Shown here in pieces: positions 16,235 through 39,323 of a stretch of DNA of 64,000 nt. The stretch's first letter is position 1. Each line of letters starts with the position of its first letter. The notes beneath the pieces were generated by a model, which made no database searches, had not been told where the DNA came from, and was given only the letters and a program-made list of their open reading frames with translations. Source of the DNA: Nitrososphaera sp. (GTDB lineage Archaea > Thermoproteota > Nitrososphaeria > Nitrososphaerales > Nitrososphaeraceae); assembly GCF_013388945.1 (NCBI RefSeq), contig NZ_JACAEH010000004.1:248001-312000 (forward strand), written 5' to 3'. The translations under genes and the position numbers were made by a program.

Positions 16235-16371
16235 GTTGTAGAGTTATACTTGCTCGCTTTTATGTTTTACTTAGTAGGCCATTGGTTAAACTCTCCATCT
16301 GATCAACCGGCAACCAAAGTCTTGCATTTTTCCCGCAAGAGTTTATTACGGCCTCCCCTTTTGAATGGGTG

Positions 16372-17307
16372 ATGCCCAACCCCTTTTACGACCGCGACAT
16401 CGTCTCGATAAAGGACTTTACCAAGTCGGACCTCGAGTACGTGTTCTCTGCAACCGACAGGATAAGGGCGATGAAGCCGTCGCAGAGGGGCGAGCTTGGC
16501 AAGGGCAGGACGCTTGGCTACATATTCTACGAGCCCAGCACAAGGACGAGGATGAGCTTTGAGGCGGCAATAGCGTCGCTTGGCGGCAGTTCCATTGGGA
16601 TTTCTGAACTAAAGTCGTCGTCGGTGGAAAAGGGAGAGAGCCTGGCAGACACGATAAGGGTCATCGATTTGTACTCGGACGTAATAGTGCTCAGGCACCC
16701 GATGGACGGCTCGAGCAGGTTTGCAGCAGAACTTTCTGAAAACCCGATAATAAACGCCGGGAGCGGGAGCGAGGAGCACCCGACGCAGGCGCTGCTTGAC
16801 CTGTATACTATATTGAAGGAGAAGGGCAGGATTGACGGGCTGTCGATAGCCATCGTCGGCGACCTGAAGTACGGAAGGACCGTGTATTCGCTGCTGTACG
16901 GGCTTGCCAACTACAAGGTGGATATTCATTTAGTGTCGCCGCCGTCGCTTGCGGTAAGGAAGGAGTCGATATACGACGTGCAGGGCAGGTTAAAGATAAC
17001 GGAGCACAACGAGCTTGACGGCGTGCTGCAGAAGGCCGACGTGCTTTATGTTACCAGGATTCAGCGCGAGCGCTTCCCCGACTTGCAGGAGTACGAGAAG
17101 GTGCGCGGGTCTTATACGATAGACAATGCGACTTTGCAGAAGGCGAAAAAGGACGTGTCGGTGATGCACCCGCTGCCTAGATTGGATGAAATATCGCACT
17201 CGGTGGACGCGACAAAGAACGCGGTGTACTTCAGGCAGGCTGCAAACGGGAAAGAATTGAGGGCGGCGCTTCTGGCGCTCATGCTGAACGAGAGTCCGGC
17301 GCTGTAG
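16372..17307 (+). CDS. pyrB: Aspartate carbamoyltransferase catalytic subunit
   Basis: About 311 residues. Carbamoyl-phosphate loop STRTRMSFEAA, the mobile 80s loop with the Ser/Lys (SSSVEKGESLADT), HPTQALLDLYTI and HPLPRLDEI are all present. It condenses carbamoyl phosphate and aspartate in pyrimidine synthesis. A GTTTATTACG box ~25 bp upstream supports the ATG at 16372 (a GTG lies just before). The regulatory gene pyrI, usually next in archaea, is not here; the AT-rich Hachiman genes follow instead, convergently, so pyrI may have been displaced. Confidence 0.9.
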   Translation: MPNPFYDRDIVSIKDFTKSDLEYVFSATDRIRAMKPSQRGELGKGRTLGYIFYEPSTRTRMSFEAAIASLGGSSIGISELKSSSVEKGESLADTIRVIDLYSDVIVLRHPMDGSSRFAAELSENPIINAGSGSEEHPTQALLDLYTILKEKGRIDGLSIAIVGDLKYGRTVYSLLYGLANYKVDIHLVSPPSLAVRKESIYDVQGRLKITEHNELDGVLQKADVLYVTRIQRERFPDLQEYEKVRGSYTIDNATLQKAKKDVSVMHPLPRLDEISHSVDATKNAVYFRQAANGKELRAALLALMLNESPAL

Positions 17308-17366
17308 AGTTGCGGCAATGCAATTAGAATTAGATTTTATAGCTATATAATTTTGATACTATTGTA

Positions 17367-19997
17367 TTATTCTTCAAAACCCACTAAACTTTCAATTTCT
17401 TTAAAGAGTATGGGATGGAGCTCGCGTTCAAGTAACGATCTGTTTGTTCTCAGCCATTGGATACAAGCAGAGATATCTTTTACATTTGGATCCATTTTTT
17501 CATATACGCTTACTGCACTATTCCGCGAAAGACCTGTGCTGAGCAGTAAGAAAATTCTTGGATCTGATGCACCTGCTTCAAGATAAGTAGAAATCTCGGT
17601 ACAAAATGTCCTGCGATCAATCTTTTCTTTCATAACGCGAGTAAGAAGATCACAATAGCATTTTAGCCCTCTAGAATAGTCGTATTTGAGTGCTGTTTCC
17701 AATGTTTCATCAAGCTCGTCTATTATCTTATTCACTAGTTTCTTAGTTAATATCTGCTTTTGAACATTCTCTGCATAGTTGAGGTTGCTCTCCAATATTC
17801 TCTTATAACTCATTTGTGAGAGCCAAAACTTTGCTATTAGTGCATAATACTTGTAACTAACGCTCTGTTCTTTCAATAAGTATGTGGAGATATACTCGAA
17901 TATCCTCATCAAATTGTTATAGAAAGCTCTGCCTGCTTCCATATCCGAAGGATCCACATCTGATGGATCCATAGGCAATTCAAGCATTACACTTCTAGAC
18001 AATTCTTTATACAGTTCAAATTGCAATCTTGGATCGATAGACCGGTTTTTCAAAGCAATCTCTTTGATATCTTCAACTTCGTTGGCTCTGATCTTCAGTA
18101 ACTTTTTTAATCGTTGAAATTTATTATCTGGAATCTCCGAACATCTAATCTGTAATTCACGTAAATACGTTCCTTCAGGATCTTTCAGTTGCTTCATAAG
18201 AAGACTGGTTGCTATTGTTTCAACATTTTTCTTGCCATAATCTTGTTTTCTAAACTTTGTAAGATGCTCTAAAAGCAGATCTATATCTTCAATGAGAGTC
18301 TTTTCGACTGCGCTTCTGACTTTTTCCAACTTACCATCGAAAATATCTTTATCAGATTGCCACTTCTCATAATCAAGGCAGTAAACATTACCATAATAAT
18401 CTTTAGCGAGTCTGCCCGCTCGTCCGGCTAGATTGAGAACCGATGATTTATCCATTTTATCTCGTGGGCCTGACTTTGGCTTGTATAAGACGATATTCTT
18501 TGCCGGCAAGTTTACACCTTCAAGAAGAGTACTTGTACAACATAGGAAATCAATTTTCTTCTCATCAAAAAGCTGTTTGACACAAAGTCTAACAAATTGT
18601 GGCATCTTACCATAGTGGTATCCCACACCGCCCTCCAAATGATCAACTAGATAATAATCTGGATGCACGTGTGTTCTTAAGAATTCTATTCCTTCTTGTA
18701 GTTCTGCAGATTTTTTTGTGTTATTAAACTTAAGAATTCCTTCAGCTACCTTCCTACATTCTGCAGGGCCGTTGCAGTAAATCAAAGTGTGTCCTTTATC
18801 TTTTAGAAGATGTTCTGCAGTCCAGATCTTCTTATAATGAATTGCCGAGTCAGAAACTACTCTATCAATATCAACAGTCTGAATATGGACATCTTGATCC
18901 AGCTCCTGCAAGTACATAGAAACATTAACTTCACGTTTTCCAAAATCTACAAAGAAAAAGTTCTGACCTACTGGTGTTTTTTGTGTTTGATGAACTATTA
19001 CTTTGTCTTCTATGTTAAAAATCTCTGGAAAACGATGCGGATCAGCTGTGTTTGGCGAAATGATTATCTTTTGTAAGGAGGGGTTCTGTTTGACAAGCTC
19101 TTGAATAGAATCTTCTATTATAACACCTCTTTTGCTATCGCTAATTTTCTGTGCCTCATCTATAACAAGCAGATCTACAACAAGCCCAAGATCGCTAGAA
19201 ATCAGTTGTTGAAGTCTTTCTTGGGTTAATACTATTACCTTTTTTGGAATCCGTTTAATCTGATCTATGTTGCCATGATCAGCTGAATTGAATACCATTG
19301 CTTCTTGCGGAGTAAGACTAAGTTCTCGAAGACTTCTAGTTACTGCTTCGTGAATCTCCGCGATCAAAGATTTTGTTGGTACCACATAAATAGCACAATA
19401 ACTATCTGATTTGAGCACACGTTCTGCAATGTATTGGTAGACGACAAATGATTTGCCAGCTGAGGTAGGCGCAGTAAATGTGACATTCTTTTTGTTAAGA
19501 AGATCATAGAAGACATCAATCTGAAAATCTGTTAACTGCCATTGATTATTTCCAATTGAAACTTGATTTGCAGTCTTCTTGATTAATATTTCAGGAAATT
19601 TTATGTACGAAATTATCTCATCCTCATAAGTTTCTGCAGTACTAAAGAAAGAGAAATAGTCTGGATACTTTTCATTGTTGACCATAGTTGCGATGGCAGG
19701 TATATCGCCCATCCTTGCAAGCACTAATTCTGCAGCAAATGGCAGAGCGTCATACTCTTTCTTATATAGTTCCAATAGGAAGAGCGAAATCTTGAGAGCT
19801 AACTTGCGATGGTTCTCATCTCGACTTAGTGCAAAAAGCGCAGCTGTTTCAATAAGATGTTTTATTTGCATGTCGGTCAGGGTAGGCTTTGGAATAGGAA
19901 ATCGACTACGAATTAGGTCGATATAGTCCCCTTTGAAATCTTGATTATTGTACGTCTGAATAGAAAACTTCGTAAATAATGTTGCAGGTTCCATCAT
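17367..19997 (-). CDS. hamB: HamB: Ski2-like SF2 helicase of Hachiman defence
   Basis: 876 residues. Residues 1-150 are a helical accessory domain. The helicase core has Walker A APTSAGKS (176-183), a DEAQ Walker B (LLVIDEAQK, about 277-285) and the motif VI NLAGRAGRL (~524), a pattern shared with Ski2/Hel308 enzymes. The C-terminal ~300 residues are helical. Known: in Hachiman, HamB senses foreign or damaged DNA and holds the HamA nuclease in check. The gene lies 8 bp after hamA. It is markedly richer in A+T than its neighbours, a sign of transfer. Confidence 0.82.
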   Translation of the reverse strand: MMEPATLFTKFSIQTYNNQDFKGDYIDLIRSRFPIPKPTLTDMQIKHLIETAALFALSRDENHRKLALKISLFLLELYKKEYDALPFAAELVLARMGDIPAIATMVNNEKYPDYFSFFSTAETYEDEIISYIKFPEILIKKTANQVSIGNNQWQLTDFQIDVFYDLLNKKNVTFTAPTSAGKSFVVYQYIAERVLKSDSYCAIYVVPTKSLIAEIHEAVTRSLRELSLTPQEAMVFNSADHGNIDQIKRIPKKVIVLTQERLQQLISSDLGLVVDLLVIDEAQKISDSKRGVIIEDSIQELVKQNPSLQKIIISPNTADPHRFPEIFNIEDKVIVHQTQKTPVGQNFFFVDFGKREVNVSMYLQELDQDVHIQTVDIDRVVSDSAIHYKKIWTAEHLLKDKGHTLIYCNGPAECRKVAEGILKFNNTKKSAELQEGIEFLRTHVHPDYYLVDHLEGGVGYHYGKMPQFVRLCVKQLFDEKKIDFLCCTSTLLEGVNLPAKNIVLYKPKSGPRDKMDKSSVLNLAGRAGRLAKDYYGNVYCLDYEKWQSDKDIFDGKLEKVRSAVEKTLIEDIDLLLEHLTKFRKQDYGKKNVETIATSLLMKQLKDPEGTYLRELQIRCSEIPDNKFQRLKKLLKIRANEVEDIKEIALKNRSIDPRLQFELYKELSRSVMLELPMDPSDVDPSDMEAGRAFYNNLMRIFEYISTYLLKEQSVSYKYYALIAKFWLSQMSYKRILESNLNYAENVQKQILTKKLVNKIIDELDETLETALKYDYSRGLKCYCDLLTRVMKEKIDRRTFCTEISTYLEAGASDPRIFLLLSTGLSRNSAVSVYEKMDPNVKDISACIQWLRTNRSLLERELHPILFKEIESLVGFEE

Positions 19998-20005
19998 TGA
20001 CTGAT

Positions 20006-21043
20006 TTACAGCTCCTTCTTGAATTTTGCCTTGAACTGATCAACATCGACAAATGGCATAAATTGAACATGAAAATGCTGATCTTTAATCTTGGATCCTA
20101 ATACAGCCTTCTGCATCTTTTCAGCTATTTCGTCATGTCGTTTTTCGAATTCGCTTTTTAGAAAAGCAGTAAGATCCAATTGATCTCTTGAGGAGAGTTT
20201 GCACATGACGTCCCAATTATAACCTATGAAAATAGAATTAACTTCTCTGTATTTTTGTTTGTTTTTAGCGTATGGTAATACAATCTCAGCAAGCACATCT
20301 GCATATCGTCCGAACTTTTCTTTGTCAATGTAAGTGGATATTATATCTAATTCAAACTTGCGTTTCCCTCCGTCTCCATTTGTAAAATCTGTGACACTAT
20401 CAATAGACTTGGAAATCGCGCCGCCCAAATCCTTATACATTTTTGACTCTCCAAAATGGAGTAATATCATGCCATTATCGACTTGTACATGAATACCATC
20501 TGCTCCATGCAACGGCATATTTTTGTTAGTCTTCAACGGCATCTTTTGTACAACCTGAATAATCCCCTCTGATTCAAGCAAGATGAAAAGAATTAATTCG
20601 CCTACTTCAGATGGTTTGGGGTCTTTCTGGCGAAATTTGTCTCTAGCTCGGCGATATATCCTTGAGGAGTACGCTGGATCCTTCATCCTTTCAGGATCTA
20701 GTAGTTTGCTCTCAGTAACATATCTGACAACCGAATCAACAAGAAAATCAATAAGATCGTCTTCTCTAATTTTATCGGCCGTACAAGTTGGAAGATAGAA
20801 CCTGCAGTTTAAAGTCGGAAGTGGTTTTTTAGTCGGAAACGAATGAAGATAATTTTCTATGTCAGCTTGCCAGACTCTTTTCATTTGTTCCAAATATTTA
20901 CTAAATTCTTCTATCTGAGTAGAAGACAACCTCGGAATTCTTCCACAGAGAGGACATATAAAAGGAATTGCTCCTAGACTTGGAGTTCTGCCGTCTGGTT
21001 GACATAATTCAATCTCGAGCAACTGACAGCTTTTCTGAAGCAT
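20006..21043 (-). CDS. hamA: HamA: DUF1837-type nuclease of Hachiman defence
   Basis: 345 residues. The first 45 residues contain Cys pairs (FICPLCG). The C-terminal half is the DUF1837 domain: GADGIHV (Asp182) then a strand and LHFGESKMYKDL (Glu199, Lys201), i.e. the D...ExK arrangement of PD-(D/E)xK nucleases, followed by SIDSVTDF and a conserved helical region. Known: HamA is the effector that degrades DNA when HamB signals infection. It is the first gene of the two-gene operon, AT-rich like hamB, with a GATATGATATC promoter-like sequence upstream. Confidence 0.82.
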   Translation of the reverse strand: MLQKSCQLLEIELCQPDGRTPSLGAIPFICPLCGRIPRLSSTQIEEFSKYLEQMKRVWQADIENYLHSFPTKKPLPTLNCRFYLPTCTADKIREDDLIDFLVDSVVRYVTESKLLDPERMKDPAYSSRIYRRARDKFRQKDPKPSEVGELILFILLESEGIIQVVQKMPLKTNKNMPLHGADGIHVQVDNGMILLHFGESKMYKDLGGAISKSIDSVTDFTNGDGGKRKFELDIISTYIDKEKFGRYADVLAEIVLPYAKNKQKYREVNSIFIGYNWDVMCKLSSRDQLDLTAFLKSEFEKRHDEIAEKMQKAVLGSKIKDQHFHVQFMPFVDVDQFKAKFKKEL

Positions 21044-21059
21044 ACAGATATCATATCTA

Positions 21060-21446
21060 AGAGCAATAACGCATTTAACATAAGGCTCCCGTTAGGGGGA
21101 GGGGGTACCTAGGGAGCCTATGGACGGCAATAGTATCCGACTTACACTTCTATCTCCCATAAATCTCATCTTCCTTCTCCTTTGCCGCGCCTGCCACCTT
21201 GAGCGCCTTTGGCGCAGGCACTCAATCCTGTCGTCGCAAAACTCCATTATCCGCCTCAAAGCACGCGGCCCCGGCAAGATTCTCCCTGCCGCCTGCAATC
21301 TCCCACACCAAACAGCCGCGCCCACCATCACAGCCCCACAAACTCCTTCCACCACCTCCTCGCATGGCCTGCGCTGACGCGCCACTCGCCGAGCTCTTCA
21401 GACAGTCCTGTGCAGAAGGTGCCCTGCTCCGCGGGCATCGTCCCTC
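21060..21446. other. Intergenic stretch without a convincing gene
   Basis: Between hamA and the next HTH gene lie ~390 bp that return to high GC. The segment begins with a G-rich run (GGCTCCCGTTAGGGGGAGG). A minus-strand frame at 21092-21385 encodes an Arg/Cys-rich peptide with no recognisable domain and atypical composition; I do not call it a gene. It could be a decayed remnant or the right boundary of the acquired hamAB segment. Confidence 0.35.
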
Positions 21447-21863
21447 TCAAGCTGCCTGAACGTCACCCTTGCCTTCCTGCAGCTTTTTCAGCGCGCGCTT
21501 GTACGCGTGCACAGTCGGCGTCTCTCCGAGCATCTCCAGGTACAGCCTGACGGTTTCATTAAGCGCCTCGAGTATCCGGGTCTTTTGCTCGACGCTCCTG
21601 GCTTCCTTGAACAGGTTCTGCAGCTCGAATTCGTGGTCCCTTATCTTTGCAAGCGCCAGCTTGTATTCGTGGATAAAGCCGTCCTTTGCCAGGTCGTCGA
21701 GCCAGCTCCCGGCCGCTCCTCGGATGTAGGCGATGTCCCTTGCAATCGTCATCCTGTTTACTTCCAAAAGCTCGGCGATGCGACCCTCGGGCACCCCCTT
21801 GACCAGATAGTACGCCACCTTCTCCCTGCGCGCGTGTATATCCGACCTGTTCACGGACACCAT
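21447..21863 (-). CDS. HTH protein, unknown
   Basis: 138 residues. A helix-turn-helix of the resolvase/terminase-small-subunit kind sits near the N-terminus (YLVKGVPEGRIAELLEVNRMTIARDI). The rest is helical with coiled-coil potential (LALAKIRDHEFELQNLFKEAR) and a basic end. Two promoter-like ATTAGTTCTTxxTA boxes precede it, the distal one being part of a repeated element (21912-22048). It might regulate through the TGTAACATTTT sites upstream. Confidence 0.55.
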   Translation of the reverse strand: MVSVNRSDIHARREKVAYYLVKGVPEGRIAELLEVNRMTIARDIAYIRGAAGSWLDDLAKDGFIHEYKLALAKIRDHEFELQNLFKEARSVEQKTRILEALNETVRLYLEMLGETPTVHAYKRALKKLQEGKGDVQAA

Positions 21864-21911
21864 CTGGAACTCCGTGCGTATTAAGAACTAATTTCCCGGC
21901 CCGCCCGCTAT

Positions 21912-22048
21912 AAAAGAACTAATTGCAGCCAGGTCGCCCGGCCCTCAAAATTGTAACATTTTTTCGTGCTCAAAATGTTACATGATGTAACATTTTTTCC
22001 GCATAACCCACTGGAAACGACCCCCCTCCGGCAGAATCCAGTTCTTTA
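21912..22048 (-). repeat. Repeated element, copy A (MITE-like, promoter-bearing)
   Basis: Ends with inverted AAAAGAACT(AATT) and AGTTCTTT(AAA). Inside, the right part (22008-22055) matches 38430-38480 in inverse orientation over ~46 bp with only a 5-bp indel and a few mismatches; the left end AATTAGTTCTTTTATA (minus strand) is also identical in both copies. In each case the element points the same way, with its TATA-bearing end 20-50 bp from a gene start. Copy A has ~65 bp extra, which carry the TGTAACATTTT sites. Confidence 0.55.
21952..21996. promoter_or_regulatory. Three alternating TGTAACATTTT half-sites
   Basis: TGTAACATTTT at 21952-21962, its complement AAAATGTTACA at 21972-21982, and TGTAACATTTT again at 21986-21996. 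The last two form a perfect 25-bp palindrome (12-bp arms around one G, 21972-21996). Such an array is an operator for a dimeric regulator. The site lies upstream of the HTH gene at 21447-21863 (minus). Confidence 0.6.
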
Positions 22049-22125
22049 AAGCCTGACATGCAAATGAACTGCCGCAGGACGAGGCCGGCACCCACTGACT
22101 TGGAGAATATTCCAAAGTTGGAATA

Positions 22126-22353
22126 TTATTCCAGATCCACAAATTCGCTCTTGTCGCCCTGCAGGTATGCAGAGAGCCTCTTTTCTATCTCCCTTGCATC
22201 CTTCTTTGAAATCTTCTCTTTCTTTTCAAAAAGCAGCAGGTGCATGGCTCTGGACAGCAGGTCTACCTTTTTCTCTAGCTCACTTTTGCGCGTCGTAACT
22301 GCTCGAAATTGGTGTATTTTGAATTTAAGGTTTGTCCGTCGCGCAGCCGCCAC
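22126..22353 (-). CDS. Small charged helical protein
   Basis: 75 residues, highly charged, almost wholly helical: RKSELEKKVDLLSRAMHLLL and KKEKISKKDAREIEKRLSAYLQG. A coiled coil is likely. The basic N-terminus suggests nucleic-acid contact. The start lies close to the divergent or tandem small regulators here; no family is recognised. It follows the winged-helix gene at 22376-22660 by 22 bp on the same strand. Confidence 0.4.
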   Translation of the reverse strand: MAAARRTNLKFKIHQFRAVTTRKSELEKKVDLLSRAMHLLLFEKKEKISKKDAREIEKRLSAYLQGDKSEFVDLE

Positions 22354-22375
22354 TGCTGATCCCTACGGCAGCGCT

Positions 22376-22660
22376 TCATTCCACGTCGGAAAAGAATTTC
22401 TTCATCAGCGCGACCAGCTCGTGCGAAAACCTCGGGTTGAGGCTGATCTCCAAGCCGTAACTTGTAGGGTGCGACATTATCAGGCCTTCTTTTATCATCT
22501 GCTTTCCAATCCTGTCGACCCTCTTCGTGCCGTCCTTGCCAAGGTCTCTCAGGTTGAACCCCTTCTTCAGGTTTTCAAACGACGTGTGGCTAGCGCCCCA
22601 CTTGCCGTGTCTGTACAGCTTCAAAACGATGCGGGCCCTTATCTCATCGTCGCTGAACAT
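22376..22660 (-). CDS. Winged-helix protein
   Basis: 94 residues. MFSDDEIRARIVLKLYRHGKW starts a helical DNA-binding fold, followed by VDRIGKQMIKEGLI as recognition region and a SYGLEISLNPR wing. A candidate transcription regulator of the small archaeal type. It is divergent from another winged-helix gene at 22731, with a TATA-like CTATAAATA between them. Confidence 0.5.
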   Translation of the reverse strand: MFSDDEIRARIVLKLYRHGKWGASHTSFENLKKGFNLRDLGKDGTKRVDRIGKQMIKEGLIMSHPTSYGLEISLNPRFSHELVALMKKFFSDVE

Positions 22661-22730
22661 GGTCCACTTATGATACCTTTGATCGTCAACTATAAATACT
22701 TTGAAGCCTCATCAAGGCTTGGGAGCAATA

Positions 22731-23048
22731 TTGGAAAAGTCGCTGCTCATTCAGTATTTGGGAGACACGCCGAAGCTCAGGATCATAGACTTCTTTCTAG
22801 AAAACAGGAGCGACTACTCAAAGAAAGAGATCATAGAGGGCACGGGCATCTCCAAGACCACATTCTACAAGGTCTGGGACGAGCTAATGCAGTTCGGGAT
22901 AGTAAAAGAGACGAGGAAGTACGGCATGGCGCAGCTCTATGCACTGAAGGAGAGCAACCCGCTGGTAAAAAAGTTCATGGCCTTGGATTCAGAACTTGGC
23001 AAGCAGGCCATGGAAAAGGTTACGGAAAAGAAGGTTCTGGCACACTAA
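22731..23048 (+). CDS. Winged-helix transcription regulator
   Basis: About 105 residues. DTPKLRIIDFFLENRSDYSK then EIIEGTGISKTTFYKVWDEL is a clear helix-turn-helix, followed by a wing (KETRKYGMAQLYAL) and a C-terminal helix. I place the start at TTG 22731 because a CTATAAATA box lies ~30 bp upstream; the frame is open to 22701. Target unknown. Confidence 0.6.
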   Translation: MEKSLLIQYLGDTPKLRIIDFFLENRSDYSKKEIIEGTGISKTTFYKVWDELMQFGIVKETRKYGMAQLYALKESNPLVKKFMALDSELGKQAMEKVTEKKVLAH

Positions 23049-23162
23049 TCCCAGCCGCGATTTTATTCTGCAAAACTTTTCCATCTCATCAACGAAAGCT
23101 CGACTCCAAGTCAACTCTTTTGCGCCCAGTTTTCCTTAAGCACTGCCAGCCATCAAAGGCCG

Positions 23163-23363
23163 ATGATAAAGATACTGTCGCTCATAATCGGGGGGATATT
23201 CCTGATGGCCATGGGCGCGTACGCGCTGAGCGTCTCAAACATCGCGCTCACGTGGCCCCAGGTCCCGTGGCCGCAGGTCGACTGGGCTCTGGTCGGGTTC
23301 GTGACCCTGATAGGCGGCCTGATATCCACCGGGACCGGGATTGCAGTGTCGCGCCTTGCCTAG
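23163..23363 (+). CDS. Two-helix membrane protein
   Basis: 66 residues: one membrane helix at 1-25 (ILSLIIGGIFLMAMGAYAL), a short polar WPQVPWPQVDWA linker with a repeated WPQV motif, and a second helix at 42-62. No known family. It is convergent with glyA, overlapping its stop by 4 bp. Confidence 0.45.
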   Translation: MIKILSLIIGGIFLMAMGAYALSVSNIALTWPQVPWPQVDWALVGFVTLIGGLISTGTGIAVSRLA

Positions 23364-38214: not shown

Positions 38215-38436
38215 TTGAGCCGGGAGAGCCGCAACACGCTACGGGACATGCTGGAAGAGGTGCTGGACAAACTCGGGCCCACCTTCAAGCAGACCATCTA
38301 CGACGAGCTGGAAAGGGCGGGGATGCACATCGACTCTCCCAGTCCCTCCCTGCCAGAGGTGGAGAGGATGTTCAAGAAACTTTTCGGCCCCGACGTCGCG
38401 GCGCTGCTTATGAAGAACCTGAGAAAACGGGCTTAA
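38215..38436 (+). CDS. Small helical protein, unknown
   Basis: 73 residues, start TTG 25-30 bp after a GTTAAATAAAAG box. It is all helix: SRNTLRDMLEEVLDKLGPTFKQ, IYDELERAG, PSPSLPEVERMFKKLFGPDVAALL. This resembles small thaumarchaeal proteins near regulators (NitRB-like length), without a known role. The repeated element copy B begins inside its stop codon. Confidence 0.45.
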   Translation: MSRESRNTLRDMLEEVLDKLGPTFKQTIYDELERAGMHIDSPSPSLPEVERMFKKLFGPDVAALLMKNLRKRA

Positions 38437-38507
38437 AAGAACTGGATTCTGTCGGAGAGGGAGGGGGTCGTTTCCAGTGGAAAACAGCCGGAAAAATTAG
38501 TTCTTTT
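38435..38507 (+). repeat. Repeated element, copy B (MITE-like, promoter-bearing)
   Basis: 73 bp bounded by AAAAGAACT(GGATT) and (AATT)AGTTCTTTT as imperfect terminal inverted repeats. The part 38430-38480 equals the copy A core (22008-22055, inverse) apart from a 5-bp indel and a few substitutions. It ends in TTCTTTTATATGG, whose TATA is ~25 bp before the IMPase ATG at 38535, so the copy supplies that promoter. Confidence 0.55.
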
Positions 38508-38534
38508 ATATGGCGCAAGCACTAGCCTGACTCG

Positions 38535-39323
38535 ATGCGGCAGGAACAGCGTCTGGCAGCCCTGAAGGAGGCCTGCCTGCAGGTGCACGCCCGCACGAAA
38601 AAGATTGCCGGGACTGCCCGGGGCAACAGGCAGATGGGCAGGGGGGCAGGAGGCGACATCTCGAGGAGGATAGACCTTGTCGCCGAAAAGACCGCGATTG
38701 ACGTATTAAGAAGGCGCGGCATCGATGCCACGATAATCGGCGAAGAGTGCGGCAGGATAGAGGGCAAGAACGGCTACGTGATAATGGACGCAATTGACGG
38801 CACGACAAACGCGTCGCGAAGGATTCCGTTCTACTGCTGCTCGCTTGCCTTTGCCACTGATTTTCGGCTGAGCGCGGTTACCGATGCAGCAATCATTGAT
38901 CTTGTTAACGGAGACCTGTACTATGCGTCAAAGGGCAAGGGGGCGTTTTGCAACGGCAAGAGGATAAGGGTGAAGGAAGCCGGCGACGACATTGTCATGG
39001 GGATGAACGTGTCAAAGATAGGCCCTGATGTTGCAAGCAAGCTGGCGCCGGTGATGGCAAGGGCAGACCACGTGCGGGTATTCGGCGCGGTCGCGCTGGA
39101 GCTGTGCTACCTTGCACGAGGATTAATAGACGCGTCTATCGACTTGAGAGGCAAGATAAGGCCGACTGACATTGCGGCCGCGTACCTCATCGTGAAAGAA
39201 GGGGGAGGAAAGATATACTCTGATGGCAAGGAGCTTGAGAGCGATCTTGATATCAGGACACGTTTGTCCTTTGTGGCTGTTGCACAAGATAACGTACTGC
39301 ATTACCTTGGCATGGCATACTAG
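38535..39323 (+). CDS. Inositol monophosphatase/FBPase-family phosphatase
   Basis: 262 residues. Metal-binding motifs: GEECG (Glu), MDAIDGTTNASRRIPFY (DxIDGT) and RPTDIAAAYLIVKEGGG (late Asp). It dephosphorylates myo-inositol phosphate, fructose bisphosphate or related sugars with Mg2+. Dual IMPase/FBPase activity is common in archaea. The promoter lies in the repeated element. Confidence 0.82.
   Translation: MRQEQRLAALKEACLQVHARTKKIAGTARGNRQMGRGAGGDISRRIDLVAEKTAIDVLRRRGIDATIIGEECGRIEGKNGYVIMDAIDGTTNASRRIPFYCCSLAFATDFRLSAVTDAAIIDLVNGDLYYASKGKGAFCNGKRIRVKEAGDDIVMGMNVSKIGPDVASKLAPVMARADHVRVFGAVALELCYLARGLIDASIDLRGKIRPTDIAAAYLIVKEGGGKIYSDGKELESDLDIRTRLSFVAVAQDNVLHYLGMAY

Follow-up and report, generated by a model that had tools for sequence, protein, structure and literature searches.

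Two intergenic stretches of an archaeal genome belong to a small dispersed repeat family that lies mostly behind genes

Introduction

Correia elements of Neisseria are MITEs with terminal inverted repeats (TIRs) that lie predominantly upstream of genes, and the pneumococcal SPRITE, BOX and RUP sequences are small interspersed repeats, some of them terminator-like, which insert into one another (PMC10969869). REPs typically number more than 100 copies (PMC2817692). aCPSF1 of Methanococcus requires U4 tracts and binds best to two of them (PMC8716108). The copper-limitation promoter motif of N. viennensis, TTCSGSMTTTGWACYANT, was considered as a counterpart and rejected, since it differs in sequence from the boxes described below (PMC7785015). 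The open literature searched held no description of small extragenic repeats in the genus to which the present genome belongs.

An earlier sequence-only reading of a 64,000-nucleotide stretch (the window; positions 248,001-312,000 of contig C31 of the host genome) had proposed that two near-identical stretches at 22 kb and 38.4 kb are copies of a small mobile or regulatory cassette that distributes a promoter. Here we report that both are members of a small non-coding, extragenic repeat family that occurs in part of one archaeal genus. In departure from that first reading, the copies do not in general stand before genes.

Genomes and methods

The host genome (G000; 1.99 Mb in 31 contigs, designated C) was compared with its congeners, those named here being G026, G027, G029, G032, G040, G041 and G042; loci are designated L. 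A sequence model (R1) was built from nine short forms of the repeat and run against G000 and 17 congeners at a threshold of E up to 0.1, at which many of the weaker hits span one box only. From these hits, we selected 17 full units for the analysis of gene context. Neighbouring genes were taken from a simple codon-score caller, not from curated annotation, and the expectation under random placement was derived from the intergenic DNA of the own-genome loci. Rfam searches with 40 loci gave no match above the gathering score at the unit, the only matches being tRNAs nearby and, in a congener, one archaeal SRP RNA. Together with the gene content, this SRP RNA points to an archaeal host, which we take to belong to the ammonia-oxidising Nitrososphaera group.

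Results

Sequence and structure of the two window copies

The two copies consist of the following parts:

22,008-22,053, minus strand: left block of copy 1, GGCTTTAAAGAACTGGATTCTGCCGGAGGGGGGTCG plus box A TTTCCAGTGG (box A at 22,008-22,017), from alignment and DNA search
21,946-21,999, minus strand: insert of copy 1 between box A and box B, GAAAAAATGTTACATCATGTAACATTTTGAGCACGAAAAAATGTTACAATTTTG, with three half-sites and a constant TTTTGAGCACGAAAAAATG core
21,911-21,925, minus strand: box B of copy 1 (AATTAGTTCTTTTATA), from sequence and pattern search
21,880-21,892 (approximate), minus strand: further box in tandem, TTAGTTCTTAATA, at a shorter distance from the start codon of the gene at 21,447-21,863
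38,430-38,510, plus strand: whole unit of copy 2, GGCTTAAAAGAACTGGATTCTGTCGGAGAGGGAGGGGGTCGTTTCCAGTGGAAAACAGCCGGAAAAATTAGTTCTTTTATA, from alignment, DNA search and model R1
38,471-38,483, plus strand: box A of copy 2, TTTCCAGTGGAAA, from pattern search
38,497-38,508, plus strand: box B of copy 2, TTAGTTCTTTTA, from pattern search

When the reverse complement of 22,053-22,008 was aligned with 38,430-38,480, 44 of 51 columns were identical, with two mismatches and one 5-nt gap. The 16-mer AAAGAACTGGATTCTG, searched with up to two mismatches in the 2 Mb genome, matched solely the two copies (control, 0). Both copies contain the box B sequence of copy 1 and terminate in TTAGTTCTTTTATA, and the box B pattern TTAGTTCTTTWA occurs at 19 sites of the genome compared with one for the reversed control. 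The near-identity and the shared end noted earlier are thus real. The claim that the element is bounded by terminal inverted repeats, AAAAGAACT/AGTTCTTTT, did not hold: copy 2 has this inverted repeat and copy 1 a near match to it, but the left arm is found in the two window copies only, and their homology continues outward of it into GGCTT.

Copy 1 is not a simple duplicate of copy 2, because a hairpin-forming insert of about 54 bp separates its box A from its box B. This insert recurs at C26:162,588 with 97.5% identity over 119 bp. The stretch 21,946-21,999 and the loci L011, L016, L021, L043 and L136-L141 carry a second repeat module, in which locus-variable half-sites (GTTACA, GGTGCA, GATACA) surround a constant TTTTRAGCACGAAAAAATG core. 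Partial co-variation of the half-sites could reflect alternative hairpins or a DNA-binding family. When 85k species were scanned for the hairpin-core pattern, seven scattered bacterial matches were obtained, a number near chance.

Make-up and distribution of the family

Members of the family share a layout of a G-rich run, box A TTTCCAGTGGAA, a variable spacer and box B TTAGTTCTTTTATA, which together form a non-coding unit of about 57 bp. The host genome holds about nine units with both boxes. A DNA search of this genome with copy 2 recovered copy 1 and five more strong matches (E below 1e-5), and a pattern search found 11 exact box A palindromes. Among the nine short-form sequences box A and box B are invariant and the spacer differs.

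Further copies, which the sequence-only reading had asked to be looked for, were found in this genome and in four congeners. R1 gave 13 hits in G000, 16 in G026, 16 in G027, 8 in G032 and 15 in G042, a single marginal hit in G029, and no hit in the remaining 12 of the 17 congeners, the near-complete G040 and G041 among them. A strict search of 70 genomes across the family returned matches in G000 and G026 only. Constant throughout the genus are TTCCAGT and the box B sequence, while the spacer, the G-run and the inserts vary and the two boxes are 18-43 nt apart. In G027 and G032 the box A palindrome has not been conserved, TTCCAGT often being its sole remnant. An RNA hairpin at box A was considered and rejected, since it is unconserved across the genus.

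Two longer arrangements were also seen. At L136, L138 and L139, box A or a variant lies together with the GGTGCA hairpin in a longer repeat, ACTTCCGGGCACGG...GGATACAGGGTGATGTGCGTTGTCAGGCTGCTAATGGATAATTA. At L078 (G026) and L085, L090 and L102 (G042), another insert, CTACAAATACAAGCGTAGTTGTAG, separates box A from box B and is near-identical at several loci.

Position and orientation relative to genes

A co-directional stop codon lies within about 61 nt of 13 of the 17 full units, against 7% expected at random (p 7e-13); when orthologous sites were collapsed, this held for 11 of 14 units (p 6e-11). The upstream neighbour is co-directional in 13 of 17 cases (expected 49%, p 0.02), and the downstream neighbour in 8 of 17 (expected 51%). 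Units are mostly found 10-60 nt past a stop codon, pointing the same way as the gene that it ends, and often between convergent genes. Exceptions exist: a co-directional stop is absent ahead of at least four full units (C4, L170/L171, L175). Several sites carrying box B with no clear box A lie 23-36 nt after stops.

These positions bear on the proposal that the unit is a MITE-like cassette which, like the Correia elements, inserts upstream of genes and supplies them with a TATA box. We consider it unlikely. The downstream gene is co-directional no more often than at random, so there is no general promoter placement, and at four of the nine own copies (C15, C17, C26:127 kb and C26:162 kb) the unit faces a convergent gene, for which box B cannot be the promoter. 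Most copies have no TIR, the nine units scanned showed no consistent target-site duplication, and the 7-mers upstream of other genes in this genome are TTAATAA/TTAAATA-like. In its favour, the TTTTATA of box B lies at a leaderless distance before the gene after copy 2 (26 nt), the C16 gene (25 nt) and an HTH gene of G042 (25 nt). Since box B contains TTTTATA, it could double as a core promoter; a TATA sequence about 25 nt upstream of a co-directional start occurs at these three places and not family-wide.

Genes beside the window copies

The genes next to the two copies are:

38,248-38,436, plus strand: small ORF in the orientation of copy 2, with its stop codon at the left edge of that copy
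38,535-39,323, plus strand: inositol-monophosphatase (IMPase) family gene (PF00459) after copy 2, with its ATG 26 nt past box B
21,447-21,863, minus strand: first gene after copy 1, encoding a 138-aa helix-turn-helix (HTH)-like protein with sub-threshold hits only
20,006-21,043, minus strand: HamA, the Hachiman effector nuclease (Pfam E 4.5e-41; PADLOC HamA1 E 7.6e-51)
17,367-19,997, minus strand: HamB, the Hachiman helicase (PADLOC HamB1 E 1.6e-173)

Copy 1 therefore stands before a Hachiman defence operon composed of the HTH-like gene, HamA and HamB (17,367-21,863, minus strand). The operon is part of an island of about 6 kb (about 17,307-23,360) that is flanked by SHMT and, at 16,369-17,307, by a convergent gene which we take, from inspection by eye, to be aspartate carbamoyltransferase. 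In G029 the counterparts of these two flanking genes are adjacent.

As had been claimed, both window copies have the same orientation relative to the gene that follows. In copy 2, box B lies 26 nt before the ATG; in copy 1, the tandem box is nearer the start. Each copy follows one gene and precedes another; a promoter role is thus possible, but by sequence it is inseparable from a role at the gene end. For the two window copies themselves, we regard it as plausible.

The HTH-type genes at C31, C1, C16 and in G042 all have box B upstream. The C1 gene (4,792-5,202) is a paralogue of 21,447-21,863 with 74% identity, and it is preceded by the same tandem arrangement of box B. At C16 (L128:8,156-8,206), a divergent pair of box B sequences lies between two genes; TATGCAT half-sites and GAGCACG are nearby, and an HTH gene begins with its ATG 25 nt downstream.

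The HTH genes would also fit a regulon with no mobility involved: the palindromic box A (11 bp) and box B would be binding sites of a transcription factor, perhaps of the HTH protein, whose genes have box B before them. The palindrome is invariant in nine copies, and box A persists at orthologous sites despite divergence of the spacer. On the other hand, most sites lie after genes and several between convergent genes, the distance between the boxes is far from fixed, and spacers common to unrelated loci imply copying of whole units. Taken together, such a regulon seems improbable to us.

Gain, loss and copying between loci

One empty site was found. The host genome carries a unit directly past the stop codon of carB; in G026 and G040 there is no insert, and carB and the convergent gene overlap at their stop codons. 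The own-genome insert exceeds the unit by about 80 bp, so that its boundaries are only approximate. At the IMPase promoter the unit is absent from the orthologues of seven or more congeners, so that the unit of the host genome was probably gained there, which speaks for the promoter cassette. At the 3′ end of SHMT, a unit is present in G026 only. For the orthologues of the convergent genes at C26, no empty site was demonstrable because the sequences are too divergent.

L180 and L166, unrelated loci in two species, share unit and spacer with 92.6% identity over 54 nt. Such shared spacers indicate that whole units have been copied to new places. Other units stay in place: the unit is retained at orthologous positions of G026 and G042 (L170/L171, L185/L176), as are box A and the G-run at L184/L186 (G000/G042). 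Some units have thus been retained long after copying.

A search for target-site duplications, a further expectation of the cassette, scanned nine units and revealed no direct repeat that was consistent among them; five own-genome units, which the scan did not match, were judged by eye only. The mobile cassette thus fared unevenly: dispersed copies, the empty site and units shared at unrelated loci agree with it, but general placement as a promoter does not.

Another candidate is a REP/BIME-like selfish repeat lacking host function, which would be spread by a transposase and tolerated only in the 3′ flanks of genes, where insertions do least harm. The units are extragenic and patchy in distribution and form subfamilies with common spacers or inserts. 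However, their orientation bias to the upstream gene and their conservation at orthologous sites suggest some constraint, and their number is far below that given for REPs (PMC2817692). We therefore rate this explanation as even less probable than the cassette or the regulon.

A separate MITE carrying box B

A distinct element of 232-278 bp carries the hairpin core and box B, the latter near one end and pointing outward, as the promoter-cassette proposal would have it. Its ends, GGCTTTGTAAAAAAAG..TTTTTTTACAAAGCC, are inverted over about 20 bp. Copies were found at L056 (C21), L057 and L058 (C22) and L051 (C15), and contigs C7 and C9 end inside the element. Three of the four copies for which both ends were found are flanked by perfect 9-bp duplications (GCCTGCAAA, CCGTGGCGC, ACTTGCGCG). 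By its structure, this element is a MITE; box B can hence ride on mobile DNA.

Discussion

We read the family as a dispersed repeat of gene 3′ flanks. A few genes would have taken over its box B as a TATA-type promoter, and these may include the genes that follow the window copies, the Hachiman operon and the IMPase-family gene. The mode of movement, the 3′-end function and the promoter activity are what we infer from sequence comparison. A role at the gene end with occasional promoter use is our working mechanism, preferred but held tentatively. The unit, about 57 bp with a G-rich run, box A TTCCAGTGGAA, a variable spacer and box B, would act mainly at the gene end, where the T-rich box B (transcribed as UUCUUUUAUA) may help to form the 3′ end of the transcript. 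Where a start codon chances to lie about 25 nt downstream, box B might serve as a core promoter, as at copy 2 and, via the tandem box, at copy 1. Termination as such is not well supported by the sequence, since box B contains no more than a single U4 tract (TTTTA sites) or none at all (the TTTAA variants, which have three T), whereas aCPSF1 needs such tracts.

A bolder version of this gene-end mechanism, which we regard as a long shot, is a dual-use cassette for gene boundaries: one T-rich box would end the upstream transcript and start the next, and the unit, spread by copying, would have been exapted repeatedly as promoter of newly arrived genes, e.g. in the Hachiman island. If the units do shape 3′ ends or promoters, transcription boundaries in these archaea could be studied on a natural set of sites that can be counted. 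The units also illustrate how a defence island that has newly inserted may come under ready-made control sequence.

Compared with archaeal aCPSF1 U-tract terminators, the family likewise places T-rich sequence a few tens of nucleotides past stop codons, but as a defined box of 12-14 nt, coupled to box A and a G-run, with one U4 tract at most, found at few genes and lacking in some congeners. With Correia elements it shares a dispersed non-coding unit whose promoter-like motif is able to sit upstream of a gene; it differs in being mainly downstream of genes and in having no family-wide TIR. REP/BIME sequences are similar as short, non-coding intergenic repeats with composite and modular forms. 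The present units are extragenic as well, but palindromic in part of the genus only, reside in an archaeal host and number about nine (8-16 model hits per genome) instead of more than 100. MITEs differ by their TIRs, which the family as a whole does not have, and by their target-site duplications, which were not seen at the nine units scanned; the separate 232-278 bp element does show 9-bp duplications. In common with MITEs, the units are non-coding, occur at several scattered loci and have both filled and empty sites. The pneumococcal SPRITE, BOX and RUP repeats are unrelated in sequence and host, and the present family has no conserved stem-loop terminator, but their nested insertion resembles the hairpin insert that separates box A from box B.
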